This document shows positions 1 through 18,099 of a stretch of 64,000 bases of DNA, piece after piece. The notes beneath the pieces were generated by a model that was not told the DNA's origin, made no database searches, and was given only the letters and a program-made list of their open reading frames with translations. The DNA is from Pseudooceanicola marinus. Lineage in GTDB: Bacteria; Pseudomonadota; Alphaproteobacteria; Rhodobacterales; Rhodobacteraceae. The stretch's first letter is position 1; every line of letters starts with the position of its first letter. Both the position numbers and the translations under genes were made by a program. The DNA lies in assembly GCF_020177265.1 (NCBI RefSeq), contig NZ_JAIVMC010000004.1:124001-188000 (forward strand). The letters run 5' to 3'.

Positions 1-299
1 TGATGGACGAACCCTTCGGCGCGCTGGACCAGATCCTGCGCCGGTCGATGAACATCGAGCTGCAACGCATCTGGAGCCAGCAGAAGGCCACCACCCTGTT
101 GGTCACCCACGGCATCGACGAGGCGGTCTTCCTGGCCGACCAGATCGTCGTCATGCACGCCAAGCCGGGGCGCATCGCGGAAATCGTCGACGTGCCGTTC
201 GAGCGGCCGCGCACCAAGGCGCTGTTCTCCGACCCGGCCTTCCACGCCATGTGCGAAGAGCTGATGGAGAAGCTGCACCCGGGCCATAAGGACGACTGA
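1..299 (+). CDS. ABC transporter ATP-binding protein, C-terminal part (SsuB/TauB/NrtD type), cut by window edge
   Basis: Only the last ~98 codons are present; the frame runs off the left edge. It opens in the Walker B/D-loop (MDEPFGALD), followed by the switch histidine in LLVTHGIDEA and the short C-terminal segment typical of nitrate/sulfonate/taurine importers. It would energise uptake at the inner membrane. The MDEPFGALD methionine is an internal residue, not the start. A hairpin terminator follows the stop. The nearest permease (831-2414) is on the other strand, so this ATPase either serves that transporter from a separate unit or ends an operon lying to the left. Family is confident; the substrate is unknown. 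Confidence 0.9.
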   Translation, partial: MDEPFGALDQILRRSMNIELQRIWSQQKATTLLVTHGIDEAVFLADQIVVMHAKPGRIAEIVDVPFERPRTKALFSDPAFHAMCEELMEKLHPGHKDD

Positions 300-402: not shown

Positions 403-834
403 TCAGCTGGCGGGGGCCATCCACTCCAGCTCGACGAAGGCGTCACCCGGCGTGCGGATGTAGCAGCAGCGCCCGCCGGGGAAGGCGATGACCTCTCCCA
501 GAACCGTGGCGCCGGCGGTGCGGCAGGTGGTCAGCGTCGTCTCCAGATCGTCGACGTGGAAACAGACATGCCCCGCGCCGGGCCGCCAGGGCAGCGGATC
601 TGCGGGGGGCGGGCCGTCCGGATGGGTGAAGGCGATCAGTTCCAGCACCAGATCCATCCCGGGCGCGCGCATCTGGGTGAAGGCGCACAGAAGCCCCGGG
701 TGCCCCGCCATACGGGCGATGTCGGCGCCCATCTCCTCCTCGACGAAGTCGGGGGCGAAGCCGAAGGCAGCGCGGAAGAACTCCATGGCGGCGGGCAGGT
801 CCGAGACGGTCATCGAGGCGTGGTGAAACCTCAT
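403..834 (-). CDS. VOC (glyoxalase/bleomycin resistance/dioxygenase) family protein
   Basis: A 143-residue protein with one VOC module pair: an N-terminal MRFHHASMTVSDL strand and helix, then a second half starting at GHVCFHVDDLE and ending in DAFVELEWM. Histidines near residue 4 and in the GHVCFHVDD segment plus the final E are candidate metal ligands. The family includes glyoxalases, epimerases and extradiol dioxygenases, so the reaction cannot be fixed. Its ATG overlaps the stop of the permease gene (ATGA), so it is translated after the permease. That suggests it acts on the imported compound or a breakdown product. Confidence 0.8.
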   Translation of the reverse strand: MRFHHASMTVSDLPAAMEFFRAAFGFAPDFVEEEMGADIARMAGHPGLLCAFTQMRAPGMDLVLELIAFTHPDGPPPADPLPWRPGAGHVCFHVDDLETTLTTCRTAGATVLGEVIAFPGGRCCYIRTPGDAFVELEWMAPAS

Positions 835-2414
835 CGCCGGGTTTTCCGCTCCAGGATGCCGACCAGTTCATAGGTCAGGGCCGAGATCAGGATCGAGATC
901 AGCGCCCCGGCCCAGATCGTTTCGTAATCCAGCGCCGGGCGGGCGAGGTTCAGCAGGTTGCCCAGGCCGATGCCCGAGACCAGCCATTCCGCCACCATGA
1001 CGCCCAGCAGGGCCATCGGCGCCACCATCTTGGCCGCCGCAAAGAGGTAGGAGATGGAATAGGGTATCGCGATGCGCCACAGCAGCTGCCAGCGCGATCC
1101 GCCATAGACCGAGACCAGGTCCCGCGCCGCCGAGGGGATCGAGGCGAAGCCCTGGGTCAGCAGCACATAAGCCGGGAAGAAGACCACCAGCATGGCGAGG
1201 AAGACCGAGGCCGCCACGCCCCGCCCAAAGGCCAGAACGACAAAGGGCACCAGCGCCACCAGCGGCGTGTTCTGCACCACCATGGCCACCGGCACCAGCG
1301 CGCGGGCGACGGCCGGCGACAGGATCGACATCGAGGCCAGCACAAAGGCGAAGGCCAGCCCGGCGATCAGCCCCAGCACCGCCATCGGCAGGGTGATCGA
1401 TAGCGCCTCCCAGATCGGGAAGGCGTCTTCGGTGAAGATGAAGCGGATCGTGGTCAGCGGCCCCGGCGCGATGATCGAGGGCATGTCGGCCAGGTCGATC
1501 AGGAAGGCCCAAAGCAGGAAGGGCACCACGAAGGCCAGCACGCCGAACCCCAGCCGTTCCACCCAGCTGCCGCTGCGCGCGGGCGCGGCCATGGCGGTGG
1601 CCAGCGTCGCGCTTTCGGTGGTGCGGCGCAGCCAGACGGCGGGGATCATGAAGATCAGATAGCCGCAGAGCCCGATCATCGAGGTCGAAATGGCGATCCC
1701 CCACAGCCGCGTCGGATTGGCCTGCGGCAGGGTCGACAGCAGGAAGGACCCGAAGCCGAACCGCGTGCCCGATCCGAACTCCCCCAGCACCGCGCCCAGC
1801 ACGGCGATCGGGGCGGCGACGCGCAGCCCGGCGAAGATGGCGGGCAGGGCGCCGCGCAGGCGGACATAGCGCATCAGCGCGCCTTCATGGCCGCCGTAGA
1901 CCTCGATCAGGTCCGACAGCCTCTGGTCGACCTGCTTCAGCCCCAGCAACATGGTGGACATGGCGGGGAAATAGACCATCAGCGCCGACAGGATCGTCTG
2001 CGGCCAGTCGCCCTTGAAGAACAGCACCAGCAGCGGACCGACGACGATGGCGGGCATGGTGTAGATGGCGATGTTCACGCCCCGAAACGCGGTGTCGAGC
2101 CAGGGCAGCACGCAGTAGAGCAGCGCCATGACGAAGGCCGCGCCACAGCCTATGGCAAAGCCCGTCGCGGCGATTTTCACCGTGGCCGCGCCGTGCAGCA
2201 GGTACAGATCGGCGCCGGTCCACATGTCCCCCAGGATATAGACCGGGCTCGACAGGATCAGTCGTCCCATCCGGGTCTGGGTGCCCAGCAGGTGCCAGAC
2301 CAGCAGCACCGACAGCACCAGCGCCACCTTCAGCGCGATCAGCGCCGCAGGGGACCGCAGCAGCGCCAGCAGCGGGCGGGGGGCGGTTTCGGGCAGGGGC
2401 AGCGTATCGGACAT
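831..2414 (-). CDS. ABC transporter permease with two fused BPD_transp_1 domains
   Basis: A 527-residue membrane protein containing two complete binding-protein-dependent permease domains in tandem. Each carries an EAA-type loop (VYGGHEGALMRYVRLRGALPA near residue 175 and VYGGSRWQLLWRIAIP near 430) and about six membrane spans. Normally two separate or identical subunits form the pore; here one chain can do so. The family is the SsuC/TauC/ThiX type that pairs with NMT1/SsuA-like binding proteins, such as the one encoded divergently at 2901. I chose the ATG of MSDTLPLPE rather than an upstream in-frame ATG because the extra 22 residues are arginine- and proline-rich with no membrane character. 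Confidence 0.88.
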   Translation of the reverse strand: MSDTLPLPETAPRPLLALLRSPAALIALKVALVLSVLLVWHLLGTQTRMGRLILSSPVYILGDMWTGADLYLLHGAATVKIAATGFAIGCGAAFVMALLYCVLPWLDTAFRGVNIAIYTMPAIVVGPLLVLFFKGDWPQTILSALMVYFPAMSTMLLGLKQVDQRLSDLIEVYGGHEGALMRYVRLRGALPAIFAGLRVAAPIAVLGAVLGEFGSGTRFGFGSFLLSTLPQANPTRLWGIAISTSMIGLCGYLIFMIPAVWLRRTTESATLATAMAAPARSGSWVERLGFGVLAFVVPFLLWAFLIDLADMPSIIAPGPLTTIRFIFTEDAFPIWEALSITLPMAVLGLIAGLAFAFVLASMSILSPAVARALVPVAMVVQNTPLVALVPFVVLAFGRGVAASVFLAMLVVFFPAYVLLTQGFASIPSAARDLVSVYGGSRWQLLWRIAIPYSISYLFAAAKMVAPMALLGVMVAEWLVSGIGLGNLLNLARPALDYETIWAGALISILISALTYELVGILERKTRR

Positions 2415-2900
2415 GATCGGTCGGGCCTTTGCTGGGGCGGACGGGACGCGCCATCCTGGTCGCATGAAGCCTGCCCGCAAACTGGATCGCGGCGCCAGAA
2501 TCGCGCGTCGCTCGGCGGCGCGGCAAAACTTGGCCGCAGGTGCGCCTGCCTTGCGATAGGGGCGCCACCGGGCCGCAGGCGGGCCAGATTGGCCAGGGTT
2601 TTGTGCAATTCCTGTGCAAAGGCCGGGAAACGGTGTCGCGGCGTTTTCCGCCGCCGAGTCCCGAAAATCCCGCCCGGAACGGCAAAAACGGGGCGAAATA
2701 GCGCGCTCTGCATGGATTTCATGCGCTTTGCAAATCGCATTTGCTGCTTCGCAGAAACCGTCAAGTCAGCGCGCATGACAGGCCAAGCCAGCCAAATTGA
2801 CCGCGCCCGGATCCGCTACCTAGGCTGGGTCCTATCGCCGGGAACCGGAAAAACGGACCGCGCCAGGAAAACGATAACCTCACCCAACAGGATCTTCCCC
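2415..2900. other. Divergent intergenic region, 486 bp
   Basis: No convincing gene lies here. Reading frames that run through it on both strands are arginine-rich GC artefacts. The 3' third (about 2700-2890) is less GC-rich and holds one plausible promoter for the rightward genes. I looked for a thiamine-pyrophosphate riboswitch because the downstream binding protein is of the NMT1/THI5 type, and saw none. Confidence 0.6.
2797..2826 (+). promoter_or_regulatory. Possible sigma-70-type promoter for the binding-protein operon
   Basis: TTGACC at 2797-2802 is separated by 18 bp from TAGGCT at 2821-2826. It lies 75 bp before the start codon at 2901 and is the best -35/-10 pair in the region. Confidence 0.4.
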
Positions 2901-3878
2901 ATGACCAAGCTTTCCCGTCGCGCCTTCACCGCCTCTGCCCTGGGCGGTCTGGCCGCTGCCTCCGTCCCCGGCCGCCTGTTCGCGCAGGATCTGACCACGC
3001 TGACCCTTCAGGCCATCTGGATCAACGACCCCGAATTCAACGGCTACTACATCGCCATGGAAGAAGGGTACTACGCCGACGAGGGTCTGAAGATCGACTA
3101 TATCCCCGGCGGCCCCGACGTGATCCCCCAGGCCTCTTTGCTGACCGGCAAGGCCGATATCGCGCTGGTCTCGCCCATGGAAACCGCCGAGGCGATCTTT
3201 GAAAAAGGCGCCGATTTCAAGGTGATCGGCGCCCAGTTCCAGAAAAGCCCCGACTCGGTGATCTTCCTGAAGGACAGCGGCATCGAGACGATGAAGGATC
3301 TGGAGGGCCGCACCGTTGCCTGCCCGCCGCTTAACGTCGGCCCCTTCAAGGTCGTCCTCGGCCTGGCCGGTGTCGACGGCGAAAAGGTGAACTTCGTCCC
3401 CTATACCTTCGACCCGACCCCGCTGGTCGCCGGTCAGGTGGACGCGGTCGTCGATTTCATGACCTCGATGCCCTATGTGATCAGCCAGGCCGCCGGCAAG
3501 GAATCCGATTTCATCCTCTTCTCCGACGTGGGCATGGTGATGGGCCAGGACCTGGTCTGCGCCAATGTGGAAACCATCGAGACCCGTCGCGAAGACCTGG
3601 TGGGCTTCCTGCGCGCCTCGCGCCGCGGCTGGGAAAAGGAATTCGAGGCCCCCGGCAAGGCCGCGCTGGAATGGGAAGACAGCTGGTTCAAGGGCAACGG
3701 CTATACCCCCGACATGACCCAGTTCCATTCGAACATCCAGGTCGACCTGATCCAGCATCCCGACGGGATCTTCGCCATGGACGACGAATGGATCGCTGCT
3801 ACGATCGAGTCGATGCACAAGGTGGGGATCGAGGCCGACGAGAGCATGTTCGATACCTCGCTTCTGAAAGAAATCTGA
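2901..3878 (+). CDS. ABC transporter substrate-binding protein, NMT1/THI5-like
   Basis: A 325-residue exported protein. The N-terminus has a twin-arginine-like signal (KLSRRAFTASALGGLAAAS) ending near FAQD. The mature part begins with LTLQAIWINDPEFNGYYIA and contains the NMT1/SsuA features GYYADEGL, DIALVSP and a hinge around residue 190. It should capture a small organic ligand in the periplasm and deliver it to the permease encoded divergently at 831-2414. The start is the ATG after AACAGGATCTTCCCC; longer in-frame upstream sequence is not protein-like. It is followed 10 bp later by an OYE gene, so uptake and reduction are probably co-expressed. Pyrimidine, sulfonate or aromatic ligands are all possible. 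Confidence 0.9.
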   Translation: MTKLSRRAFTASALGGLAAASVPGRLFAQDLTTLTLQAIWINDPEFNGYYIAMEEGYYADEGLKIDYIPGGPDVIPQASLLTGKADIALVSPMETAEAIFEKGADFKVIGAQFQKSPDSVIFLKDSGIETMKDLEGRTVACPPLNVGPFKVVLGLAGVDGEKVNFVPYTFDPTPLVAGQVDAVVDFMTSMPYVISQAAGKESDFILFSDVGMVMGQDLVCANVETIETRREDLVGFLRASRRGWEKEFEAPGKAALEWEDSWFKGNGYTPDMTQFHSNIQVDLIQHPDGIFAMDDEWIAATIESMHKVGIEADESMFDTSLLKEI

Positions 3879-3888: not shown

Positions 3889-5013
3889 ATGACTGACAAG
3901 ACCACCGGGCCAAGCGCCCTGTTCACCCCCCTGATCGTCAGGGGGGTGACGTTTCATAACCGCCTTCTCCTGTCCCCCATGTGCCAGTACGCCGCCGAGG
4001 ATGGCCGCGCGACGGGCTGGCATTTCGATCACTACGCCCACATGGCCATGTCCGGTCTGGGCGGCGCCCTGATCGAGGCGACGGCGGTGCAGCCCGAGGG
4101 GCGGATCACGCCGGATTGCCTCGGGGCATGGTCGGATGACCAGATCCCCGGGTTGGCGATGATCGCCGAGGCGTTTCACCGTCACGGTGTCCCCGCAGGA
4201 GTGCAACTGGCGCATGCGGGCCGCAAGGCCTCGACCGAGCCGCCCTGGAACGGGGCGAAATTCCTGCCCGCAGGCGACCCGCGGCGCTGGACCTGCGTTG
4301 CGCCCTCGGCTGTGCCCTACGCCGACGGTTGGCCCGCCCCAGCCGAGCTGAGCCTGGACGACATCGCCGCCCTGCGCGCGGCCTTTGTCGCGGCGGCGCA
4401 GCGGGCCATGGCGGCCGGGTTCGATTTCGTCGAGATCCACGGCGCCCACGGCTACCTGCTGCACAGCTTCGTCTCCCCCCTGTCGAACCGGCGCACCGAC
4501 GGCTACGGCGGGTCCGCCGAGGCGCGGCATCGCCTGCCGGTGGAGATCGCGCAGGACCTGCGCGCCGCCCTGCCCGAGGACATGCCGATCTTCTACCGCG
4601 CCTCCTGCGTTGATCGCGTCGAGGGCGGGCTGGACCTGGAGGACACTGTGGCCCTGGCCGCCGCGCTGAAGGGCGTAGGCGTCGACGTGGTGGATTGCTC
4701 CGCCGGTGGCATCGCGCCGGGCACCAATGGCTCGCAGGTCGGGGAGGAGATCACGGCCCAGCACGACATGGCCGCACGCGTGCGGGCCGAGGCGGGGGTG
4801 GCGACCATGGCCGTGGGCGGCACCCACAGCCCCGCCGTCGCCATGGGCAGCATCGACGACGGTAAGGCTGACCTGGTCGCGGTGGCCAGCGAGATGCTGA
4901 ACAACTTCGACTTCCCCCGGCAATGCGCCGAGGCGGCGGGCGTGGAGACACCCGATTTCATCCAGCCGCACCGCTACGCCTTCTACAACCAGTTCGCGCG
5001 AGGGGCCTCATGA
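3889..5013 (+). CDS. NADH:flavin oxidoreductase, Old Yellow Enzyme family (YqjM class)
   Basis: A 374-residue FMN-dependent TIM barrel that reduces activated C=C bonds (enones, maleimides and similar) with NAD(P)H. Visible features are the SPMCQY motif with Cys32 (the redox-sensing cysteine position of YqjM), the substrate-binding His184/His187 and the tyrosine in IHGAHGYLL, and the family signature SPLSNRRTDGYGGS. These place it in the YqjM/thermophilic-like class. It is transcribed with the binding protein upstream, and its stop overlaps the start of the aldo/keto reductase. A ring-reduction or enone-reduction step in catabolism is the likely role; the substrate is not determinable. Confidence 0.9.
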   Translation: MTDKTTGPSALFTPLIVRGVTFHNRLLLSPMCQYAAEDGRATGWHFDHYAHMAMSGLGGALIEATAVQPEGRITPDCLGAWSDDQIPGLAMIAEAFHRHGVPAGVQLAHAGRKASTEPPWNGAKFLPAGDPRRWTCVAPSAVPYADGWPAPAELSLDDIAALRAAFVAAAQRAMAAGFDFVEIHGAHGYLLHSFVSPLSNRRTDGYGGSAEARHRLPVEIAQDLRAALPEDMPIFYRASCVDRVEGGLDLEDTVALAAALKGVGVDVVDCSAGGIAPGTNGSQVGEEITAQHDMAARVRAEAGVATMAVGGTHSPAVAMGSIDDGKADLVAVASEMLNNFDFPRQCAEAAGVETPDFIQPHRYAFYNQFARGAS

Positions 5014-6032
5014 CACTGCCCCGCGTGCCCCTGGGGGGCACCGGGCTTTGCGTCAGTCGCATCGGGCTTGGTACCGCGCCTCTAGGGGATTTCTACGCGC
5101 ATCTGGACGACCATCAGGCCATCGCCACGGTGGAGGCCGCGCTGGCGGCCGGCATCACCCTGCTGGACACCTCGCCGCACTACGGCAACGGCCTGGCCGA
5201 ACATCGTACCGGCACCGGCCTGCGGTCGGTCCCGCGCGATCAGCTGGTGCTGTCGACCAAGGTGGGCCGGGTGATGGACCCGCACCGCCATGGCTCCGTG
5301 GCGGCGCCCGCGCGCGGTTTCGTCGGGTCCCTGCCGCATGCCGCGCGGTTCGACTACAGCTATGACGGGACGATGCGGTCCATCGACCAGTCCCTTCTGC
5401 GGCTGGGCACGGACCGGCTGGACCTGGTGCTGATCCACGATGTGGACAGCTGGACCCATGGCGAGGCGATGATCGAGGCCCGTTATCGTCAGGCGCTGGA
5501 TGGCGCCACGCGGGCGCTGGCGGAGCTGAAGGGGCAGGGGGTGATCGCCGGCTACGGGCTGGGTCTCGATGACCACGAGATGGCCGAGCGGTTCCTGGGC
5601 GATGCGGATTATGACGTGGTGCTGCTCGCCGGGCGCTATTCCCTGCTGGAACAGCCAGCGCTTGCCACGATGATGCCCCGGGCGCAGGCCAGGGGCACGG
5701 CGCTGATCCTGGGCGGGGTGTTCAACTCCGGCATCCTGGCCACCGGCGCGGTGCCGGGGGCGAAATACAATTATGCCGAGGCCGGGCCGGACGTCCTCGA
5801 CCGGGTTGCCCGGATCGAGCGGATCTGCGCCGCCCATGGCACCGCGCTGCCCCATGCGGCGCTGCACTTCGCCCTCGCGCATCCGGCCGTCGCCTCGGTC
5901 GTCCTCGGCGCCGTGCGTCCCGAGGAGGTCACCCGCAACATCGCCGCCCTGCAGGCGGAGATCCCCTCCGCCCTCTGGGCCGACCTGAGGGGCGAGGGCC
6001 TGCTGGACCCCGCCGCCCCGGTGCCCGACTAG
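5010..6032 (+). CDS. Aldo/keto reductase (pyridoxal 4-dehydrogenase / D-threo-aldose dehydrogenase-like)
   Basis: A 340-residue NAD(P)-dependent TIM-barrel enzyme with the complete AKR tetrad: Asp53 and Tyr58 (LLDTSPHYG), Lys84 (LSTKVGR) and His143 (LVLIHDVD). The sequence style (PLGDFY at the N-terminus, PHAARFDYSYDG in the middle) resembles the group annotated as D-threo-aldose 1-dehydrogenase, L-fucose dehydrogenase or pyridoxal 4-dehydrogenase, which oxidise a cyclic hemiacetal to a lactone. The start ATG overlaps the OYE stop (ATGA) and is preferred over an in-frame start 87 bp upstream. It probably acts on a carbonyl intermediate of the same pathway. Confidence 0.87.
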   Translation: MTLPRVPLGGTGLCVSRIGLGTAPLGDFYAHLDDHQAIATVEAALAAGITLLDTSPHYGNGLAEHRTGTGLRSVPRDQLVLSTKVGRVMDPHRHGSVAAPARGFVGSLPHAARFDYSYDGTMRSIDQSLLRLGTDRLDLVLIHDVDSWTHGEAMIEARYRQALDGATRALAELKGQGVIAGYGLGLDDHEMAERFLGDADYDVVLLAGRYSLLEQPALATMMPRAQARGTALILGGVFNSGILATGAVPGAKYNYAEAGPDVLDRVARIERICAAHGTALPHAALHFALAHPAVASVVLGAVRPEEVTRNIAALQAEIPSALWADLRGEGLLDPAAPVPD

Positions 6033-6089: not shown

Positions 6090-6836
6090 TCAGTCGAACA
6101 TCTGACCCCAGCCGGTGATGGCGGGGCGCACCCCGGCCTTTAGGCAGGCATCCAGATAGGTGACAGAGATGGAATCGGCCAGCGGGATCCCCGTCTCGGC
6201 CTCGTATTCCGCCGCCAGCGCCGTGGCGGGGAAGTTGGTGCAGACCACCGCGACGCAATCGGCGGCATCGTCGGCGGCCTCGTGCAATAGGGCGCGCATC
6301 CGATCCAGCGGCGTCGCGCCGATGTCGACGTTGGCCACGCAGCCCAGCGAGACGGCCTTCACCACCTCGAAGCCGGACCGCGTGTAGTTCTCGACGATGG
6401 CCGCCGTCACATCCTCGGTATAGGGCACGGCCAGCGAGATCTTGCGCCAGTTCTTCGCGGCGAACAGATCGAAATAGCCGATGGTGGCCGAGGTCGCGGT
6501 GATCCCGGTTTCCGCCTCGATCAGCTCGCACAGCTTGCGGTCCTGGTCGATGCCGCGCCAGCTGGCGGCGGTGCCGTTCCAGGTGATCACGTCCAGCGGC
6601 GCATCGGCCAGAAGCCGCGCCGCAGACAGCATCGGGTCGTACTGGAAATGGCTTTCCGAGCTTTCGTTCAGCGCCAGGGTCTTCACCACGATCCGCGAGA
6701 AATGGTTCGAGATGCGCGCCGCCTCCTGCATGCTCAGGGCATAGGTCAGCGGCTCGGCCCAGGTGTTTGACGAGGGCATGATATGGCCGATGCGGGTATA
6801 GCTGGCGGGGTCGCTGTAGGGATAGGGCAGGGTCAT
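6090..6836 (-). CDS. Arylmalonate decarboxylase / maleate isomerase family protein with one catalytic Cys
   Basis: A 248-residue member of the Asp/Glu racemase superfamily, recognised from PSSNT near residue 21 and VVCTNFPAT near 199. The second catalytic cysteine is kept (Cys199), but the first site reads WNGTAASWRG with Gly88 where isomerases and racemases have Cys. Arylmalonate decarboxylase has the same Gly-for-Cys exchange with a nearby ...S-x-x-RG context, so decarboxylation of a malonate-type acid is more likely than isomerisation. It is the last gene of the minus-strand series, and its ATG overlaps the amidohydrolase stop. The family is confident; the decarboxylase reading is inference from the active site. 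Confidence 0.82.
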   Translation of the reverse strand: MTLPYPYSDPASYTRIGHIMPSSNTWAEPLTYALSMQEAARISNHFSRIVVKTLALNESSESHFQYDPMLSAARLLADAPLDVITWNGTAASWRGIDQDRKLCELIEAETGITATSATIGYFDLFAAKNWRKISLAVPYTEDVTAAIVENYTRSGFEVVKAVSLGCVANVDIGATPLDRMRALLHEAADDAADCVAVVCTNFPATALAAEYEAETGIPLADSISVTYLDACLKAGVRPAITGWGQMFD

Positions 6837-8293
6837 GACGGGTCCATGGGCAGGGTGCGGGTAAAGCCGAGGTCGGGTTTCGGCCGGGTGTCGAGAAACT
6901 GCTGGATATGGGGCAGGGCGGCCTCGGCGGCGGCGCGCTGGTCGGCGCGGGCAGCCTCCAGCGCAGGCATGTGGCGGGCGATGCGGGCGCGCAAGGCGCG
7001 GGTGTCGAAACGGGGCTGGCCGTCTGTCAGCACCTCGCGTCCCGCGACGAAGACCGAGGTGACCGAGCTGCCGGTTTCCGCCGTCACCATCTGCACCACC
7101 GGATCGTTCAGGGGGGTGAAGGCGAGGGTGTCGAGGGACAGGATCGTCAGGTCGGCGGGGGCGCCGGGGCGCAGGGTCGAGGGCGCCAGCCCCATGCAGG
7201 CCGCGCCGCCTTGGGTGGCCATCCCATAGGCGGTGGCGGCGTCGATCCAGTGGTCGCGTGTGGTCTCGGACAGACGCGACAGGTTGGTCGCATGGCGCAT
7301 CGCCTCGAACGTGTTCATGGCGTCCGACGAGTTCGCCCCGTCGGTGGCGAGGCCAGGCGTCAGCCCTGCCTCGCGCATCATCTGCACCGGGGCCACGCCT
7401 GCGCCCAGGCGCTGGTTCGACGCCGGGATATGCGCCACTGACGCGCCGTGCCGCGCCAGGGTGGCGAAGTCGCGCGCGCCCAGCCAGATCGCGTGACCGG
7501 CGGTGAAATCGGGGCCCAGAATGCCCAGGCTTTCCAGCCGGTCGACGGGCGAGCCGCCCCAAAGCTGGCGCGCCACTTCGGCCTGAAGGCGGCTCTCGGC
7601 AACATGCATGTGCAGCCGCCAGCCCCGGCGTCGGGCCAGGTCGGCGGCGCCTCGCAGGAAGGCCTCGGAACATTGGTGCGGGATGGTCGGCGCCAGGCCC
7701 CAGGTGATCCCCTCCGGCAGGGCAAAGCCCATGCCCTTGTCGATACGGGTCAGCAGGGCCTCGGGGTCCTGCGGGGCGGTGCTCAGGCTGGCGGCGATCT
7801 CGGGCGGCAGGGTCTCGACCAGCCCGGGGATGCTGTCCGCAAAGCCGATGTCGGCGACCATTGGCGCGATAACGGCGCGCAGGCCCGCGTCGGCATAGGC
7901 TTGGGCCACGGCGGCCAGATGGTCGGGATCGGGGGCGGGCATCCCCACGGCCAGGTCATAGACCGCCGTCACCCCTTTCGACAGCATGTCCCAGGCGCCC
8001 AAGAGGGTACTGTCATAGACCATCTGTGCATCACGACCGGCAGCCATCCAGCCGCCCGAGGTCAGGGAAAACTCCAGCGGCCAGCGGTCGGCCACGCCCT
8101 TGTTCAGGTTGGCGTGCCCATGGGTATGGGCGTTGACCAGCCCGGCGATCACCATCTGCCCGCTGATGTCGCGGCGCGGCAGGCCGGCGGCGTCCGCGCT
8201 GATCACCCCGTCGCGCAGGATCACGTCACGGACGGTCACCGCGCCGGTCAGGGGGCATGCCACGAGGCCGCCGGTCAGAACCAGGCCTGTCAT
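6833..8293 (-). CDS. Amidohydrolase (ATZ/TRZ, MTA/SAH-deaminase-like)
   Basis: A 486-residue metal-dependent hydrolase. Metal and catalytic residues are visible: His56 and His58 in NAHTHGHANLNKG, His230 and Glu233 in LHMHVAESR, His267 in AGHAIW, and Asp318 in ATDGANSSDAMN. This is the pattern of subtype III amidohydrolases, which deaminate or dechlorinate N-heterocycles (5'-methylthioadenosine, s-triazines, guanine-like rings). It is translationally coupled on both sides by 4-nt overlaps. A deamination step on an N-ring or its cleavage product fits the cluster, but cyclic amide hydrolysis cannot be excluded. Confidence 0.88.
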   Translation of the reverse strand: MTGLVLTGGLVACPLTGAVTVRDVILRDGVISADAAGLPRRDISGQMVIAGLVNAHTHGHANLNKGVADRWPLEFSLTSGGWMAAGRDAQMVYDSTLLGAWDMLSKGVTAVYDLAVGMPAPDPDHLAAVAQAYADAGLRAVIAPMVADIGFADSIPGLVETLPPEIAASLSTAPQDPEALLTRIDKGMGFALPEGITWGLAPTIPHQCSEAFLRGAADLARRRGWRLHMHVAESRLQAEVARQLWGGSPVDRLESLGILGPDFTAGHAIWLGARDFATLARHGASVAHIPASNQRLGAGVAPVQMMREAGLTPGLATDGANSSDAMNTFEAMRHATNLSRLSETTRDHWIDAATAYGMATQGGAACMGLAPSTLRPGAPADLTILSLDTLAFTPLNDPVVQMVTAETGSSVTSVFVAGREVLTDGQPRFDTRALRARIARHMPALEAARADQRAAAEAALPHIQQFLDTRPKPDLGFTRTLPMDPS

Positions 8294-9171
8294 CTTGGGC
8301 AGACCTGCGCAAAGTGGCGGGCCACTTCGGCGCGGGGCGCGAACCAGACGCCCGGGGTGCCCGCGACCTCTTCCAGGAAGTTGCGGATGCCTTCGAACCG
8401 TGCGGGCTGGCCCGAGATGCGGTTGTGCAGCGAGATGGTCATCAGCCGGGGCGAGCGGGCGCTTTCGCGCAGCAAGGTCCGGAAGGCCGACCAGAGGTAG
8501 GCGTGGAAATCGCCCGGCGTCGGCAGCTTGGCGGTGGCCAGGCGGTTGTCGTTCAGGGTGAAGGTATGGGGCACCACCAGGCGACCTTCGGTCCAGTATG
8601 GTAAATCGTCTGCATAGCCGTCTGCATCGTAGATCAGACAGGGGTGATCGGCTAGAAGCATACGGGTGCGTTCGGATGCGGCATAGCGGCATTGCCAGCC
8701 CGTGGGGGCGCGGCCCGTGGCGGCGGTGATGCCCTCGACGGCGGCGGCGATGGCGGCGCGTTCCTCGGCCTCGGTCATCAGGAAATGGCGCTGAAAGCGG
8801 TTGCCATGGGCGCAGATGTCCCAGCCTTTTTCGGCGATGAACCCCGCCGCCTCGGGGTTGCGCGCCAGGGCCTGGGCGCAGGCACCGATCGTGGGGGGGA
8901 TGTCAAAATCTTCGAACATCTCGGCCAGCCGCCAGAACCCCGCGCGGCTGCCGTATTCAAACAGGCTTTCGGCCACCAGATCGCGTTGGCCCAGGGGCAC
9001 CTCGCCCGGGATGGCGTCGGTCAGGGCCAGCTCGGTGGCCGGATCGCCGTCGGGGATCGAAGGCTCGGCGCCCTCTTCGAAGTTCAGCACCACGACCACC
9101 GCCAGACCGGCGCCGCCGGGCCAACGGAAGTCGGGCTTCACCCGCCCGTATCCGACGAAATCGCGCGTCAT
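8290..9171 (-). CDS. Polysaccharide-deacetylase-family protein, PuuE (allantoinase)-like
   Basis: A 293-residue NodB-fold protein. It shows the PuuE-type sequence series VVLNFEEGAE near the N-terminus, DGD, a LFEYGSRAGFWRL block and the metal-site segment WDICAHGNRF. Members of this branch hydrolyse cyclic amides or N-acyl groups (metal-independent allantoinase PuuE, cyclic imidases) rather than polysaccharides, and there is no signal peptide here. I start it at the ATG of MTRDFVGYG, which overlaps the amidase stop. It probably opens a cyclic amide/imide or removes an N-acyl group in the same pathway as its amidase and amidohydrolase neighbours. Confidence 0.85.
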   Translation of the reverse strand: MTRDFVGYGRVKPDFRWPGGAGLAVVVVLNFEEGAEPSIPDGDPATELALTDAIPGEVPLGQRDLVAESLFEYGSRAGFWRLAEMFEDFDIPPTIGACAQALARNPEAAGFIAEKGWDICAHGNRFQRHFLMTEAEERAAIAAAVEGITAATGRAPTGWQCRYAASERTRMLLADHPCLIYDADGYADDLPYWTEGRLVVPHTFTLNDNRLATAKLPTPGDFHAYLWSAFRTLLRESARSPRLMTISLHNRISGQPARFEGIRNFLEEVAGTPGVWFAPRAEVARHFAQVCPR

Positions 9172-10355
9172 GCGGTGCCCTCTGGCAGTTGCGCGAAGAT
9201 CTCGGCGGCGATGGCCAGCAGCCGTTCCTCGCCACGCGGGCCGGCGATGAAGGACAGGCCCACGGGCACGCCCTCGACCGTGGTCGCGGGGATGTTCAGC
9301 TGCGGCAGCCGGGTCAGCGAGGCGACGCAGGTCAGCGCCAGGGTCTTTTCGCGGAACTCGATCAGCTGTTCCAGACCGCCCCCCACTTCGGGCGGCAGGT
9401 CGTGGGCCGTGGGAATGCACAGCACGCCGTCGCCGCCCAACAGGTCCACCATGTAGCCGGTCAGCGCATCGCGCCAGATCGTCGCCGGGGCGATGTCGGC
9501 GGCGGTGACGGTGCTGGCCAGTTCCATACGCTGGGCGATGGAGGCCGAGACCTGCCGCCCGGGCTGCGCCGCCCAGGTGCCCAGGGTGGCGTGCAGGTCG
9601 CCCAGTTGCAGCGGGCGGAAGGTCTCCAGCCAGTGCTCGACCCCGCCGCGATACAGATCGACCTCGGTCGTGGTCAGTGCCTGCGCCAGCGGCGCCAGCG
9701 CCTCGGCCACCCGCGCATTGGGAATGGCGAAGGCATCGCGGGCCAGCATCAGCCGGGTCGCCGACAGGGGTTTCGGGGCACCGAAATAGGCCTCGCCCAC
9801 GCGCGACATCACCTCGGGCGTGCGGGCCATCCAGCCCACGGTGTCGAAGCTGGGCGCCATGGCCATGACGCCCGCCACCGACAGCCGCCCGAAGGTGGTG
9901 CGCAGCCCGAAGATGCCGCAGAAACTGCCCGGCACGCGGACCGAGCCGCCTGTGTCGGTGCCGAGCGCAAAATCCACCAGCCCCCCCGCCACGGCCGAAG
10001 CCGAGCCGGAGGAAGAGCCCCCCGGCACGCGGGACGGCGCGCGGGGGTTGATGGGGGTACCGTAGAACTCATTGTCACCGAACATCCCGCAGGCGACTTC
10101 GTCGGTATGGGTCTTGCCCAGACAGAGCGCGCCGGCGGCCAGCGGCACCTGCACCGCAGGTGCTGTGGCGGCGGCCACCACCCCAGCTTTCAGCCGGTCG
10201 GGATTGCCGCAGGCGGTGACGCTGCCTGCGATGTCGAACAGATCCTTCACGGCGAAGGTCAGGTCCGACAGCGGGCCGGTCTCCGCCGCCCGGAAGGGCG
10301 CCGGGGAATGGCCGACGAAGGCTGCGCGGCGGAGCGTTTCGGCGTCCATGCTCAC
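9168..10355 (-). CDS. Amidase (amidase-signature family)
   Basis: A 395-residue amidase-signature hydrolase. The Ser-cisSer-Lys triad is recognisable: Lys37 in FAVKDLFD, the cis-Ser within PGGSSSGSAS (residues 112-119) and the nucleophile Ser138 in TDTGGSVRVP. It hydrolyses a linear amide to acid plus ammonia or amine. The predicted start is a GTG at 10355-10353 that overlaps the upstream TGA, the same coupling used throughout this series; an ATG two codons in (10349) is the alternative. With about 395 residues it is at the short end of the family, like AtzF-, biuret- or indoleacetamide-type amidases. Confidence 0.88.
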   Translation of the reverse strand: MSMDAETLRRAAFVGHSPAPFRAAETGPLSDLTFAVKDLFDIAGSVTACGNPDRLKAGVVAAATAPAVQVPLAAGALCLGKTHTDEVACGMFGDNEFYGTPINPRAPSRVPGGSSSGSASAVAGGLVDFALGTDTGGSVRVPGSFCGIFGLRTTFGRLSVAGVMAMAPSFDTVGWMARTPEVMSRVGEAYFGAPKPLSATRLMLARDAFAIPNARVAEALAPLAQALTTTEVDLYRGGVEHWLETFRPLQLGDLHATLGTWAAQPGRQVSASIAQRMELASTVTAADIAPATIWRDALTGYMVDLLGGDGVLCIPTAHDLPPEVGGGLEQLIEFREKTLALTCVASLTRLPQLNIPATTVEGVPVGLSFIAGPRGEERLLAIAAEIFAQLPEGTA

Positions 10356-11836
10356 TCTGCCGCCGCCTTGGCCAGCAGGTTGTCGACCTCCAGGTCATAG
10401 GTGCCCATGAAGCCGTCGACGCGCGATTTCACCTCGTCCCAGTCGAAGAAGCGGAAGGAGTTGCCACGGATCACGAACTGGGCGCCCGAGTAGAACATCT
10501 CGTACTGCAAGTGGCGCGAGCCGAACTCGGATCCGACCGCGTCCCAGGCCAGTTTCATCAGCTTCACCCGGTCATGGCTGTCCATCACGGGCGAGCGTTG
10601 CGTGCGGCCGATGATGTCTGCGGTTTCGGGGCTGGCGAAGTCGAGATCCGACGAAGGCACCATGATCATGCCACCGCCCGACAAGATGCGGATCGCCTCG
10701 ACCACTTCCGGATAGGTCGTCTGGGCGATGACCTGCGCGGTGACGAGGATCGAGCGGTCGGGGACGTAGTATTTCCCGTATTGCTCGCCCTTCGCCTCCA
10801 TCGCCAGCACCAAGGCATCCATGTTCTGGACCTTGGCGGCGATCAGGCCCAGCTGTTCGCGTACCTGCGGATAGCCGATGATGTTGTTGGTCTCGGCGAT
10901 CTTGCGCGCCAGGCCCAGCAGGAAGTGAAGTTTTTGCGTCAGGCGGATCATGCATTGGTAGTTCTGCATGACGTGACCGCGCGTCTGGTGCCACTGCGCC
11001 TGCGCCAGCTTCAGGTCGCGGAACATGAAGACCCGTTCCCAGGGCACCTTCACATCGTCGAAGACGACCACGGCGTCGTTCTCGTCGAAACGGGCGGAGA
11101 GCGGGTAGTCGAAGGTCGAGGTGGCGCTGGCCTCGTAGCTGCGGCGCGACAGCATCTTCAGGCCCTTCGTGCCAAGCGGCATCGTCAGGGTGAAGGCGTA
11201 ATCCTCATCGCCCGGTTGCAGCGGCGTGATGCCCGACACCATGATCTCGTTCGCGACGATGCCCGAGGTGGCCAGCATCTTGGCGCCGCGGATCGTCACG
11301 CCTTCGCTGTCCTCGTCGACGATGCGCGCGACCAGGTCGCGGTCGGCCTGACCGGCGGCGGATTTCGCCTTGTCCGCCTGCGGGTTGATGATGACGTAGC
11401 TGAGGTACAGGTCATTGTCGCGCACGTAGTCGAAGTAATCGGCCAGGGCGGCGGAGCGTTTGGGGTCGGCGGCCTCGTAGACGTCCAGGCCCATGCGGAA
11501 GCCCACGAAGGTGGAGGCGACGTGATCGGGCGAGCGGCCCATCATGCCGCAGGTCAGGGCCGACCATTCCTCGATCGCCTTGCGACGCTCGACCAGTTCG
11601 GCATGGGTGGTGGGCATCATCCAGGACTTGTTGATCCGCTTGCCGGTCTTGGGCGAGGCGAATGTCATCCGGTCCTGGTTCTCGGGCGCGGCCTGGTAAT
11701 CATAGAGCGCGCAGGCCGAAGCGACGGCGCCACGAAAGGCGGGGTCGGTGTTGATATCCGCGACGCGTTTGCCGTCGAGGTAGATACAGCGGTCGTCCTG
11801 AAGCGAGGCGAGGTGGTCGGCACCGTTCTTGGGCAT
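10352..11836 (-). CDS. HpaB-family flavin-dependent monooxygenase (4-hydroxyphenylacetate 3-hydroxylase-like)
   Basis: A 494-residue oxygenase component. Family blocks are clear: IYLDGKRVADINTDPAFRG at the N-terminus, CGMMGRSPDHV, NDLYLSYVIINPQADKAK, GAKMLATSGIVANEIMV and the C-terminal GSRHLQYEMFYSG. These enzymes use FADH2 from a separate reductase to hydroxylate or cleave aromatic and N-heteroaromatic rings. No flavin reductase gene is seen in the window, so one must be supplied elsewhere. The stop overlaps the amidase start. A 228-bp gap separates it from the gene upstream, so a second promoter may lie there. Confidence 0.9.
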   Translation of the reverse strand: MPKNGADHLASLQDDRCIYLDGKRVADINTDPAFRGAVASACALYDYQAAPENQDRMTFASPKTGKRINKSWMMPTTHAELVERRKAIEEWSALTCGMMGRSPDHVASTFVGFRMGLDVYEAADPKRSAALADYFDYVRDNDLYLSYVIINPQADKAKSAAGQADRDLVARIVDEDSEGVTIRGAKMLATSGIVANEIMVSGITPLQPGDEDYAFTLTMPLGTKGLKMLSRRSYEASATSTFDYPLSARFDENDAVVVFDDVKVPWERVFMFRDLKLAQAQWHQTRGHVMQNYQCMIRLTQKLHFLLGLARKIAETNNIIGYPQVREQLGLIAAKVQNMDALVLAMEAKGEQYGKYYVPDRSILVTAQVIAQTTYPEVVEAIRILSGGGMIMVPSSDLDFASPETADIIGRTQRSPVMDSHDRVKLMKLAWDAVGSEFGSRHLQYEMFYSGAQFVIRGNSFRFFDWDEVKSRVDGFMGTYDLEVDNLLAKAAAE

Positions 11837-12064: not shown

Positions 12065-13048
12065 TCAGGTCGCCAGCATGTCGGCGTCGAACATGTCTTC
12101 GGGGGTCATGTTGGTCTTCAGCAGACCTTCCTCGCCCATGTAGCGGATGATCGCCTGCAACGTGTCGCGGTTGCGGGCGAAGCCGCCGGACCAGTAGCCT
12201 TGGCCGAGGCGTCTTTCGGTGTCCAGCAGGGCCTCCAGCTGCCAGGGCAGCATCGTCTTCAGCACGCCGGAGTGGTAGATCTGGTCACGCGCCATCTGCT
12301 GCGCGTCGTTCAGCGCGGTGAACAGGCGACGGGTCAGGCCCGGGTGGGCTTCGGCGATGGTGCGCTTGACCGCGAAGATGTGCATCGGCGGCAGGATCCC
12401 GGTCTTCGCATAGAAGGCGGTTTCCGTCTCGCGCGGGTCCTCGTAGAGGCGGGTCACCGGGCAATCGGGGTCGAAGGGATCCCAGGTCGAGGGCGCCGCG
12501 GCGGTATAAAGCGCGTCGATCTTGCCCTCGGCCAGCATCCGGGCCAGCCCGCCCTCGTCATCGGCATGGACGATCTCGAAATCCGCCGGGTATTGCTGCG
12601 GGTGCTCATCGCCGCTGCGGCCGAACTCCAGCCCGTTGGTGACGTAGATGGGCGCGCGCATCGGCAGGCCGTAATGTTCGTCGAAGATGCCGCGCAGCCA
12701 GACGGCGGCGGCCATGTCCCAGATCGGGATGCCGACGCGTTTGCCGGCCAGATCGGCGGGCGAGGTCAGCCCCGCCGCGCGGTTCACGAAGACGCAGGAA
12801 AAGCGGAAGTGCCGCGAGGGGAAGATCGGCACCGCCAAGTAGCGGCGCGGCCCTTCCAGATCGCGCAGGTAGGTGGCCAGCGGATATTCGGCAGCGTCGT
12901 AGACGTGGCGCGCGCATTGCAGGTTGAACAGTTCCTGCACCGGGTGGGTGTGCCAGGTGGCCGCGACCCCGTCGATGCGGATCTCGTCGTTGATCAGCGG
13001 GCGCAGGCGGTCGTTGTCGGAGGAGCCGATGGTCAGCGACAGGGTCAT
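12065..13048 (-). CDS. 4,5-dihydroxyphthalate decarboxylase (Pht5)-like protein
   Basis: A 327-residue protein with no signal peptide. It starts with LTIGSSDNDRLRPLIND and has YDAAEYPLATYLRD, VAVPIFPSRHFRFSC-type and LAGKRVGIPIWDMAAAVWLRG segments, all typical of the Pht5/4,5-dihydroxyphthalate decarboxylase group. That group shares the fold of periplasmic binding proteins, but this copy appears cytoplasmic and is encoded among enzymes, which argues for catalysis. The ATG overlaps the stop of the ArcS-motif gene. Decarboxylation of a dihydroxylated aromatic acid made by the nearby hydroxylases is a reasonable guess, not shown. Confidence 0.8.
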   Translation of the reverse strand: MTLSLTIGSSDNDRLRPLINDEIRIDGVAATWHTHPVQELFNLQCARHVYDAAEYPLATYLRDLEGPRRYLAVPIFPSRHFRFSCVFVNRAAGLTSPADLAGKRVGIPIWDMAAAVWLRGIFDEHYGLPMRAPIYVTNGLEFGRSGDEHPQQYPADFEIVHADDEGGLARMLAEGKIDALYTAAAPSTWDPFDPDCPVTRLYEDPRETETAFYAKTGILPPMHIFAVKRTIAEAHPGLTRRLFTALNDAQQMARDQIYHSGVLKTMLPWQLEALLDTERRLGQGYWSGGFARNRDTLQAIIRYMGEEGLLKTNMTPEDMFDADMLAT

Positions 13049-14079
13049 GCGTCTTCCTTTTCCAGGATGTTCTCGACCAAGACGTCCAGCAGTTCCGGCA
13101 GGGCCAGCGGCGTCGCGTTCGCCCCGCCGCGCGACCAGTGGCTGCCGACGCGGTCGGGCGTGGTGCCCAGGCGCTTGGCCAGCCGCGCGATCGCGTCGGT
13201 GCAGTCCTCGGCCAGGGGCAGGCAGGTGATCTTCAGCGGATCGGGCAGCAGGTCATTGGCGCCGATGAAGGCCAGGTTGCGCCCCGCGACCTTCTTCGAG
13301 GCCGGCACGCCATGGGCCTTGCGCGCGCCCTTCTCCAGCACGAAGGACCGGTGGGTCAGCCCCGGCGCCACCCAGGAAATGCGCGCGTCGTAGAATCCGC
13401 CGATCCGTTCCATCGCCTTGGCCAGCAGGCGGGCCATTTCGTTGTGCATCTCGACATAGGCGCGTTTTTCATTGTCGCCCCAGGCCCATTTCGACGGGCC
13501 GACCTGAACCGCCGTGCTGTCCCCGCGCCAGGGCGAGACGGCATTGCCGCGCTTCTCGAAAAGCCCCGGATCGTCATAGGCATGGCAGGGCGAGGGCTTG
13601 CCCTCGTAGCCGGTGATCGTCTCGTAAGGGACCAGCGCCATGGGTTCGGAAATCACCGCGCGGTGAATGTAGGTGCCCTTGCCGTCACTGAGGATCGACA
13701 CGTCGAGCAGCTCCTGCGGATCGTCGGGACCCAGTCGCGCGCACAGCTCCTGCGCCAGGGGCTGGCGGGCGACGGGACGGAACCCTTCGTCATGCAGGCG
13801 GCGGTTGATCGCCCGGTGTTCGGTCGAGAAGGGATAGGGTTTCGTCGCCGTGCAGGGCATCATCAGCAGCACCTTGCGCCCGCCCTCGGGCAGGGGCGGC
13901 ATGTAGCGTTCCGTGACGAACTCGATCCAGTCGGCAATGCGCGGATGCGACAGCGAGTCCATGTTGTCCTGGGGGGAATAAAGGCACAGCTCTGGGTCGA
14001 GCTCATAAGGCGCCTGGATCTTCTCCTGCGACTGGAGGAAGCGGGCGGCCTTGTCTTCGACGATGACCTGGTTCGACAT
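13045..14079 (-). CDS. DUF5591-like protein with the archaeosine synthase motif
   Basis: A 344-residue protein containing, at residues 75-88, PCTATKPYPFSTEH. This is an exact fit to PC-x3-KPY-x2-S-x2-H, which I recall as the signature of archaeal archaeosine synthase ArcS, where a lysine is added to a tRNA-bound nitrile. A later EPMALVPYE segment also resembles that domain. No tRNA-guanine transglycosylase or PUA domain is present, so tRNA modification is unlikely. The start ATG follows a strong AGGAGG that overlaps the TAG stop of the monooxygenase gene, so the two are coupled. It sits among ring-degradation enzymes; addition to or cleavage at a C-N centre is possible. The function is unknown. 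Confidence 0.78.
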   Translation of the reverse strand: MSNQVIVEDKAARFLQSQEKIQAPYELDPELCLYSPQDNMDSLSHPRIADWIEFVTERYMPPLPEGGRKVLLMMPCTATKPYPFSTEHRAINRRLHDEGFRPVARQPLAQELCARLGPDDPQELLDVSILSDGKGTYIHRAVISEPMALVPYETITGYEGKPSPCHAYDDPGLFEKRGNAVSPWRGDSTAVQVGPSKWAWGDNEKRAYVEMHNEMARLLAKAMERIGGFYDARISWVAPGLTHRSFVLEKGARKAHGVPASKKVAGRNLAFIGANDLLPDPLKITCLPLAEDCTDAIARLAKRLGTTPDRVGSHWSRGGANATPLALPELLDVLVENILEKEDA

Positions 14080-14088: not shown

Positions 14089-15531
14089 CTAGATGGTTTC
14101 CGGCGTCAGATGGGGCAGGGGGGCGGTTTCGGGGCGCAGCTCGGGCTCGTCATAGGCGCGCAGGGTCGCCAGATGATCGGCCGCGTCCTCGGTGAACAGC
14201 TGGCGGGTGATGCCGCGTACGACCCGTTCGGCGCCAAACTTCAGCGCCGAGATCCCGGCGGAGCAGCCCTGGGAGACCATGGCGGCGAAGGTATAGCAGT
14301 AGTGGCGCGCCAGCACGGCGTCGGAGACGGCATCGCGGCCCTGGAACTGGAAGGCATCGCCCAGGTAGGGATAGGCGCCCAGCCCGTAGGCCTCGGGCCC
14401 GGCGGCGGGGGCAAACCGATCGGCCCAGGTGGCGATGCCGGGGGCCAGGCGGGCCAGTTCGGGGCGCAGGGTCGGGTCGATGGCCATGCCGGTTCCGACG
14501 ATCAGGAAATCCGCGTCAAAGCTGCCCTGGGGCGTGGCGATCTGCACCTTCCCATCCACGTGCGCCAGGGCGGTGAAGGGGCTGTCGTAATGGATGCCGA
14601 AGCTCTGCCAGACATGGCAGCGGTTGAAGGTGTCCTGCGGCGGCGGCTGGTTCATGCGGAAGATGGTCTGCATGAACTCCCACTTCGTCGCATCGTCCAG
14701 ATCGGGGAAATGGCGCAGGAAGCCGGTGTATTCCATCCAGCGGTAGGGGTTCACCGGCGGCAGTTTCGGGCGCCGCACGAACAGATCCACCTTGGCCGCG
14801 CCCGCCTCCAGCGCGCAGGCGGCATTGTCGAAGGCCGAGGCGCCGCCGCCCAGCACCGCCACCCGCTTGCCCGCCAGGGCGGCAAAGTCGATGGTCTCGG
14901 CGGTATGGGCGTAAAGGGTGTCGGGCAGGGCGTCGCGGACGAACTCGGGCACCGCCCAGGCGCCGGTGGCCTCGATGCCGGGCGCCAGCACCACGGCGCG
15001 GGCGTAGTCGACGCTTTCGTGCCCGTCACGGTCGCGCAGGCGGATGGCGGTAATGCCTCCCTCCAGCGGCTCCAGGTCCACGACCTCCACCCCGTGAAAG
15101 ACCGGCTGGCCGACAATGCCCGCAACCCAGCCCAGGTAGTCCTGCCATTGCGCCTTCGGGATCTTGTCCAGTACCTCCCAGGCGGCATCGCCGTAGCGGG
15201 CGCGATACCAGGCCTCGGGGGTCAGGGCGGGGATGCCCATCTCGGGGCCGGAGACGTGTTTCGGCGTGCGCAGCGTCTGCATCCGCGCGTAGGAGGTCCA
15301 GGGGCCAGCCTCGCCGGGGCGGTTGCGGTCATAGAGGCGGATATTGGTGACATTCTCGCGCATCAGGCCGAAGGCGATCGACAGGCCCGACTGGCCGCCG
15401 CCGACAATCGCCACGTCCAGCACCGGCTGGCCCTTGTACTGGCGCGGCGTGACCCAGGGTCTGCGGGGATAGGACAGCGCATCAATCTGCGCCTGCGCGG
15501 CCGCGGCCAGCGCATTCAGCGGGTCTGACAT
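14089..15531 (-). CDS. FAD-dependent NAD(P)H oxidoreductase, flavin-containing monooxygenase type
   Basis: A 480-residue protein with two dinucleotide-binding motifs: FAD site AIVGGGQSGL (about residues 41-50) and NAD(P)H site VAVLGGGASAFDNA near residue 225. A TPKHVSGPE segment and the overall layout match class B flavin monooxygenases and Baeyer-Villiger-like enzymes. I start it at the ATG preceded by AGGAG five bases upstream; a GTG two codons earlier would sit inside that ribosome site. It is the first gene of the long minus-strand series. Oxygenation of the imported substrate or of a later ketone intermediate is the expected role. Confidence 0.87.
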   Translation of the reverse strand: MSDPLNALAAAAQAQIDALSYPRRPWVTPRQYKGQPVLDVAIVGGGQSGLSIAFGLMRENVTNIRLYDRNRPGEAGPWTSYARMQTLRTPKHVSGPEMGIPALTPEAWYRARYGDAAWEVLDKIPKAQWQDYLGWVAGIVGQPVFHGVEVVDLEPLEGGITAIRLRDRDGHESVDYARAVVLAPGIEATGAWAVPEFVRDALPDTLYAHTAETIDFAALAGKRVAVLGGGASAFDNAACALEAGAAKVDLFVRRPKLPPVNPYRWMEYTGFLRHFPDLDDATKWEFMQTIFRMNQPPPQDTFNRCHVWQSFGIHYDSPFTALAHVDGKVQIATPQGSFDADFLIVGTGMAIDPTLRPELARLAPGIATWADRFAPAAGPEAYGLGAYPYLGDAFQFQGRDAVSDAVLARHYCYTFAAMVSQGCSAGISALKFGAERVVRGITRQLFTEDAADHLATLRAYDEPELRPETAPLPHLTPETI

Positions 15532-15725
15532 GGACACTCCTGATCAGGACGTTTGACGCCCCGCGCAGGGGCGCCGCACGGCCGGACCCGATTTTCCGGT
15601 TGCCACGGCCTTTGCCTGTCAGATTTCCACGTTCCGACCCGCCGGTCAGCGCCCTTGGCGCGCTTTGCCAGTGGAGCAAAGAAAAACCGCGCCCCTGTCC
15701 GCCGCCCTGCCTATTTCGTGACCGT

Positions 15726-18056: not shown

Positions 18057-18083
18057 CGGCGCCCCTCCCCCCAGAGTATTTGG
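18030..18083 (+). repeat. Dispersed two-hairpin element, copy A (overlaps end of glcD)
   Basis: Hairpin 1 is GGGGGC (18030-18035) with GCCCCC (18039-18044). Hairpin 2 spans about 18046-18064 with a CGCC/GGCG core. The tail CTCCCCCCAGAGTATTTGG follows. The first part lies inside glcD codons; related copies are at 22959, 29465 and 35457. Confidence 0.7.
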
Positions 18084-18099
18084 CCCCCAGAGTATTTGG
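18068..18099 (+). repeat. Perfect tandem duplication of a 16-nt unit
   Basis: CCCCCAGAGTATTTGG at 18068-18083 is repeated exactly at 18084-18099. It duplicates the tail of repeat copy A, and the second unit places GGAG just before the glcE start. Confidence 0.9.

Follow-up and report, generated by a model that had tools for sequence, protein, structure and literature searches.

The open reading frame at 13045..14079 of the window (the whole 64,000-nucleotide stretch of Pseudooceanicola marinus DNA analyzed here) encodes a free-standing bacterial protein related to the catalytic core of archaeosine synthase (ArcS). We tentatively propose that this core has been reused as a metabolic enzyme that acts on a nitrile-, amidine- or imidate-type carbon during the breakdown of a purine-like ring. 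The protein is homologous to the ArcS core and similar to it in fold, carries invariant ArcS-type residues, lacks tRNA-handling domains and is encoded in a recurring operon. Since the parts that hold tRNA are absent and catabolic genes lie around it, it seems that a fold for RNA modification was turned to small-molecule chemistry.

The DUF5591 protein, its motif and its fold

The gene begins with ATG, with AGGAGG directly 5' of the ORF, and encodes 344 residues. Two blocks of the protein are referred to throughout:

13045..14079, minus strand: free-standing DUF5591 / ArcS-core protein, 344 aa (ORF, profile and fold)
13816..13857, minus strand: motif PCTATKPYPFSTEH, residues 75-88, an exact PC-x3-KPY-x2-S-x2-H
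13567..13650, minus strand: second block SEPMALVPYE...YDDP, residues 144-171, aligned with SSPLVVPRE...YDTP of AF0587

The exact motif that a preliminary description had noted at residues 75-88 was confirmed, and it is the only match across the six frames of the window. From residue composition 8.7e-6 occurrences are expected per window, which rules out chance as its origin. Its standing as an ArcS signature rests here on AF0587 (PDB 2q07), a DUF5591-type protein that we take from its name to be from Archaeoglobus and that has the motif; the printed consensus was absent from the ArcS literature searched. P75, C76, K80, P81, Y82, S85 and H88 are invariant in all 32 relatives of alignment A2, the invariance of K80, P81, Y82 and S85 being partly selected for, since the scan with alignment A1 picked loci through the exact peptides LCLYSPQD or KPYPFS[TS]E and the latter overlaps the motif. 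LCLYSPQD is held by 29 of the 32 rows of A2, and in the nine rows that have the motif without KPYPFS[TS]E it is still invariant. Altogether 68 of the 344 columns are invariant among the 32 proteins, and the invariance of the motif spans Alphaproteobacteria and Actinomycetota at identities down to 41%.

The Pfam profile PF17884 (DUF5591) matched the window protein with an E-value of 1.2e-7 and 32.2 bits (cut-off 26); the match is confined to residues 49-97, which counts against our preferred explanation. All 32 relatives matched the profile at E <= 0.001. In a control set of 14 genomes, PF17884 matched three at the default E-value, all of them archaea (M. jannaschii, H. volcanii and M. acetivorans), and five at E up to 1, two of which were bacteria with scores below the cut-off. 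Only two NCBIfam models, both for ArcS, matched the window protein, at residues 37-97, and with the ArcS equivalog NF040592 it scored 32.8 bits against a whole-protein cut-off of 440, which it does not reach; in the control set the same model gave E <= 0.001 in 13 of the 14 genomes and scores above the cut-off in three. No TGT or PUA family was detected in the window protein by Pfam at E up to 1, and the absence of both domains, claimed beforehand, agrees with Pfam and NCBIfam alike. The protein is therefore not ArcS itself but a free-standing relative of the ArcS core.

Sequence searches of the PDB returned AF0587 only, as a weak match on the motif (E 0.21 for the single sequence and 0.011 for a profile). 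Pairwise hhalign comparison between A2 and the DUF5591 region of AF0587, which is not a database search, gave 86.8% and an E-value of 4.3e-6 over 57 columns, and aligned two blocks, PC-x3-KPY-x2-S-x2-H and S-x-P...VP-x-E...YD-x-P. The corresponding pairwise values were 82.8% against AF0587 together with the phage protein described below and 11.9% against the phage protein alone. These profile and profile-profile comparisons support the relation to the archaeosine synthase catalytic module, and we have very little doubt that the window protein is homologous to the ArcS catalytic core (DUF5591).

The AlphaFold model of the window protein had a mean pLDDT of 90.1. Structural alignment placed it closest to AF0587 (2q07), with a Z-score of 11.1 over 139 residues at 3.1 A and 24% identity, while the next match had a Z-score of 6.0. 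Both residue blocks of this closest solved fold align with the window protein, although the core of the latter is longer and has inserts. Foldseek against the PDB gave a best E-value of 0.7, with 2q07 absent among the matches listed. A search of the viral library BFVD gave a sole match at E <= 0.001, with an E-value of 8.9e-4 and a probability of 1.00, to a DUF5591 protein encoded by Vibrio phage nt-1. The structural match to the ArcS module on which the preliminary description had staked its reading is thus present, both in AF0587 and in phage nt-1, even though plain Foldseek against the PDB missed AF0587.

Like the window protein, the nt-1 protein is free-standing, and the accessible part of PMC6884629 calls it an ArcS homologue and describes nt-1 as encoding ArcS. 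Its gene was also located by profile (L069:1369-2046) and, unlike the window gene, adjoins a QueD-like (6-pyruvoyl tetrahydropterin synthase-like) gene. The motif of the nt-1 homologue reads CTTTRPYENS, with R in place of K80 and W in place of H88, suggesting that not all motif residues are needed in all relatives and that the signature is not strict. With ArcS (NF040592) the window protein shares the DUF5591 core and PC-x3-KPY-x2-S-x2-H, the signature that the preliminary description gives for ArcS. It differs in having neither the TGT-like N-terminal domain nor PUA, in being bacterial and in belonging to a catabolic operon. No radical-SAM-like CX3CX2C protein that could stand for RaSEA, the radical-SAM partner of ArcS, was found near the DUF5591 genes beyond two chance matches judged by eye among 503 picked ORFs of 32 loci.

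Relatives and the catabolic operon

Genome searches with the DUF5591 protein gave four matches among 60 relatives (the window's own, two real ones and a remnant), four among 385 genomes of the class (the window's own, two real ones and a spurious one) and a single match, the window's own, among 390 genomes of the order. One DUF5591 relative was found on a plasmid of Rhizobium sp. ACO-34A. While a single-sequence scan of genome contigs detected no relatives of the window protein, the scan with alignment A1 identified 30 loci, 27 alphaproteobacterial and three actinobacterial by title. We left out a match inside a glutathione synthase gene (G100/L007/L014; 30% identity, E 1.5e-4) as spurious and G021/L004/L013 as a deletion scar. 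L010, L016, L017 and L026, which are identical with or nearly copy the loci L009 to L011, were kept outside both A2 and the counts. L040 is in A2 with its first ~60 residues unaligned, probably through a frameshift in the MAG. L043 is also in A2, yet its gene is not among the picked ORFs, so that context counts refer to 31 loci and not 32; they include the near-kin pairs L008/L021, L037/L039 and L032/L041. The A1 scan of viral contigs gave no relatives. Twenty viral contigs with a PCTA-x-KPY DNA pattern were rejected, the frames at the match being short or without the remaining motif. A tblastn search of phage records with the window protein found none and is insensitive, since it missed the distant relative that nt-1 holds. 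Relatives are few, mostly alphaproteobacterial and patchily distributed.

The gene starts nine bases from the end of the upstream gene, and at its stop it shares the four bases ATGA with the start of the next gene. The coupling to catabolic genes that had been claimed is therefore real, with a 4,5-dihydroxyphthalate-decarboxylase-like protein and an HpaB-type monooxygenase encoded among the neighbors. The surrounding genes of the window are:

3..299, plus strand: C-terminal end of an ABC ATPase whose gene begins left of the window (G000:C4:123472-124299)
831..2480, minus strand: ABC transporter permease (BPD_transp_1)
1887..3878, plus strand: NMT1/THI5-like substrate-binding protein of an ABC transporter, residues 382-592 of the listed ORF
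3889..5013, plus strand: NADH:flavin oxidoreductase (Oxidored_FMN), also in L008 and L015, probably accessory
4923..6032, plus strand: aldo/keto reductase, also in L008 and L015, probably accessory
6090..7673, minus strand: arylmalonate-decarboxylase/EutA-like protein, C-terminal residues 329-526 of the listed ORF
6833..8692, minus strand: amidohydrolase (Amidohydro_1), listed ORF; match from residue 180, the real start being further in
8290..9420, minus strand: PuuE-like hydrolase (polysaccharide-deacetylase family), listed ORF; with the PuuE match starting at residue 85, the real start is probably internal
9168..10355, minus strand: amidase family amidase (NF006169, 420.8 bits against 391)
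10352..11836, minus strand: HpaB-type flavin-dependent monooxygenase, oxygenase component (Pfam, NCBIfam)
12065..13048, minus strand: 4,5-dihydroxyphthalate decarboxylase-like protein (9jp7, E 5.9e-45), overlapping the DUF5591 stop
14089..15537, minus strand: FAD/NAD(P)-binding oxidoreductase, weakly similar to Lys/Orn N-monooxygenases and ArsO, directly upstream of the DUF5591 gene

There is strong support for identifying 12065..13048 as decarboxylase-like. The remaining genes of the set are found immediately left of the window in its own genome (G000:C4, ~115,700-124,300) and comprise a second polysaccharide-deacetylase-type gene, CobW, an AraC-type regulator, an 8-oxoguanine deaminase, an aminotransferase, an aldehyde dehydrogenase and the ABC ATPase.

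The same gene families recur at the loci of the relatives. Among the 31 loci we counted decarboxylase-like genes in 22, amidohydrolase in 22, amidase in 21, HpaB in 20, the FAD enzyme in 20, PuuE in 16, class III aminotransferase in 12, aldehyde dehydrogenase in 11, HDAC-like genes in 8, CobW GTPase in 7 and flavin reductase in 7, all of these being lower bounds since ORF picking misses genes (for example, the window's PuuE and Amdase) and loci end ~10 kb to each side. A relative of the FAD enzyme is the immediate upstream neighbor of the DUF5591 gene at 18 of the 31 loci; the decarboxylase-like gene follows immediately downstream at 17 and stands upstream at four; and 16 loci have the DUF5591 gene directly flanked by both. 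The place in a catabolic operon proposed for the window gene is therefore common to the loci of many relatives, and we consider a catabolic context for the DUF5591 protein highly probable. Four relatives (L038, L040, L043 and L044) have surroundings of another type, with DUF1989 and class II aldolase-like genes nearby; DUF1989 was identified by scan in L044, an isochorismatase by scan in L040, and the aldolase was named by eye.

In G021, a genome of the same genus, ~24 kb with the whole catabolic set are missing (L013, 9867-10260), the flanks being 94% identical on both sides. At the joint, pieces of the FAD enzyme gene and of the DUF5591 gene remain, which makes it a deletion scar. The set is thus gained or lost as a unit. 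A cluster that adjoins the set in the window (16602-20611), with FAD-linked oxidase genes and a gene for a cysteine-rich 4Fe-4S protein in what is presumably a glycolate-oxidase-like order, is 95-98% identical in G021.

HpaB was absent from 11 of the 31 loci, of which L024, L028 and L037 are cut there by the end of the locus or contig, and L022 and L030 are 6-kb contigs. Loci without HpaB have other oxidation systems, namely a molybdenum-hydroxylase-type enzyme with a Rieske protein in L012, a Rieske oxygenase in L030 and a P450 in L034. In the tree, whose midpoint root serves for drawing only, L011, L012 and L022 fall among HpaB-bearing relatives, suggesting that one type of DUF5591 protein pairs with different ring-oxidizing partners. 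HpaB relatives at E <= 1e-100 occurred in 18 of 385 genomes of the class, 17 of these being outside the genomes with DUF5591 matches (two draws of 385 each). Besides HpaB, two such neighborhoods contained a flavin reductase and a weakly matching amidase, with the other operon families absent at E <= 1e-20. HpaB was dropped as a marker of the pathway, since its relatives are common elsewhere. An analogy with indole-3-acetate for the pair of HpaB and amidase was also dropped, HpaB not being found in the accessible parts of the auxin-degradation papers searched. On plasmids of Thioclava, Caballeronia and Roseateles (L087, L088 and L089), HpaB relatives of 54-56% identity belong to a different recurring set of flavin reductase, HpaB, cupin or DUF4437, amidase, DUF2848 and a branched-chain ABC transporter.

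Possible substrate and proposed chemistry

The 8-oxoguanine deaminase encoded 3.5 kb left of the window scored 615.8 bits against an NCBIfam cut-off of 532, and that of Kaistia soli was likewise above the cut-off. The island around the DUF5591 gene of L012 contains allantoicase, ureidoglycolate lyase, a PuuE-OHCU decarboxylase fusion, xanthine permease and cyanuric acid amidohydrolase, each scoring better than its cut-off. These genes point to a purine-like ring, without naming the compound, and a purine-like substrate is a reading that we put forward tentatively. Neither the window nor 22 loci contained a riboswitch or other Rfam family at gathering score that would hint at the substrate.

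The operon would thus import and dismantle a nitrogen-rich, purine-like heterocycle. HpaB and its flavin reductase may hydroxylate the ring, the FAD enzyme could oxidize a nitrogen or a carbon, and the deaminase with the several amide hydrolases would strip and open the ring. The decarboxylase-like protein would remove CO2, and the aminotransferase and aldehyde dehydrogenase may handle an amine side chain. A base-like intermediate would be bound by the DUF5591 enzyme in a pocket of the ArcS type, where Cys76, aided by Lys80, Ser85 and His88, could attack an sp or sp2 carbon of the nitrile, amidine or imidate type. The thioimidate-like adduct would be taken over by water or an amine, giving an amide or amidine that the neighboring amidase could hydrolyze. 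Since the motif Cys, Lys, Ser and His are kept, an attack of the ArcS kind, with a small base replacing the tRNA, is the economical reading, and C-N chemistry at a nitrile- or amidine-type carbon is a possibility that we put forward with caution.

According to the accessible part of PMC11298593, characterized ArcS adds lysine to the preQ0 of tRNA; it is active on a nucleoside, nucleotide or RNA and not on the free preQ0 base, which argues against the simplest small-molecule version of our proposal. In the literature searched, the thioimide step has its evidence from QueF-type enzymes and not from ArcS; the part of PMC5485725 available documents Cys-thioimide chemistry on the preQ0 nitrile, with absorbance at 376 nm, for QueF and QueF-L, which are unrelated to DUF5591. 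QueF and QueF-like enzymes resemble the present proposal in acting on a nitrile, that of preQ0, through a Cys thioimide (PMC5485725), but they have the T-fold and are compared for chemistry only.

A narrower version, which we think unlikely, is that the operon breaks down 7-deazaguanines (preQ0, preQ1 or queuine), with the DUF5591 enzyme acting on a free preQ0-type base. The enzyme would convert the nitrile to an amide or amidine, from which the amidase would produce 7-carboxy-7-deazaguanine. The dihydroxyphthalate-decarboxylase-like protein would take off CO2, the 8-oxoguanine-deaminase-like enzyme would deaminate, and HpaB would oxidize the pyrrole ring, while the aminotransferase and aldehyde dehydrogenase would provide entry from preQ1. 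A candidate gene is present for each step. We know of no earlier catabolic route for the tRNA bases preQ0, preQ1 or queuine, and if this version were true the operon would be the first known. No such route appeared by title among the matches listed in literature searches for one.

DUF5591 was not found by name in the literature searched, which mostly excludes subscription journals, nor was any paper on a free-standing DUF5591 protein of this kind or on its pathway. In the parts of that literature available, the DUF5591 core is tied only to 7-deazaguanine modification of tRNA and phage DNA, and a bacterial branch that stands alone within a catabolic operon would be a case of this fold at work on small molecules. 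Its gene marks a catabolic pathway, undescribed in the literature searched, for a probably purine-like compound, and the window protein could serve as a compact model of the active site of ArcS, for which AF0587 is the sole sequence relative found in the PDB.

Alternative explanations

The same operon could act on another bond, with the ArcS fold serving as a hydrolase, lyase or deaminase on a ring-opened intermediate (an amide, ureide or enamine) by an acid-base or Cys mechanism that has nothing to do with nitriles. Amide and ureide hydrolases are numerous in the operon, and a scan that, among nitrile-converting enzymes, covered the Cys motif of nitrile hydratases found no such motif in the 503 ORFs of the 32 loci. 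Furthermore, the conserved GLFExR, WVxPGLTHRSF and TPLxLPE lie outside the region that hhalign aligned with AF0587, suggesting that the pocket may differ. The motif residues are nevertheless shared with a family whose one characterized member found in the literature adds an amine to a nitrile (PMC11298593, as far as its accessible part goes), and we judge this alternative somewhat unlikely.

The best fold matches after AF0587 were thymine-DNA and uracil-DNA glycosylases (Z 6.0 to 5.2, with several TDG/UDG chains down to 4.3). They would fit a uracil-DNA-glycosylase-like enzyme that cleaves the N-glycosidic bond of an imported modified nucleoside and passes the base to the deaminase and oxygenase. 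According to the tool, however, Z-scores below 8 may mean merely a common arrangement, so that this weak similarity does not imply function. The unrelated folds of cutinase and the tubulins follow closely at Z 5.1 to 4.8, and the closest sequence relatives are not known as glycosylases. We regard such an activity as improbable.

Catalysis by the window protein is so far a prediction from sequence, which leaves room for a non-enzymatic ligand-binding or regulatory protein with a structural motif. Against this, Cys, Lys, Tyr, Ser and His are invariant in 32 of 32 proteins from two phyla at the identities given above, and we consider a non-enzymatic role quite improbable. Finally, although relatives of known or proposed role act on 7-deazaguanine in tRNA or DNA (accessible parts of PMC11298593 and PMC6884629), a tRNA- or nucleic-acid-modifying enzyme that merely travels with catabolic genes is very improbable, given the missing PUA and TGT domains, the want of a radical-SAM-like partner among the nearby ORFs beyond the two chance matches, the patchy distribution, and the tight coupling and recurring gene order with the catabolic genes.
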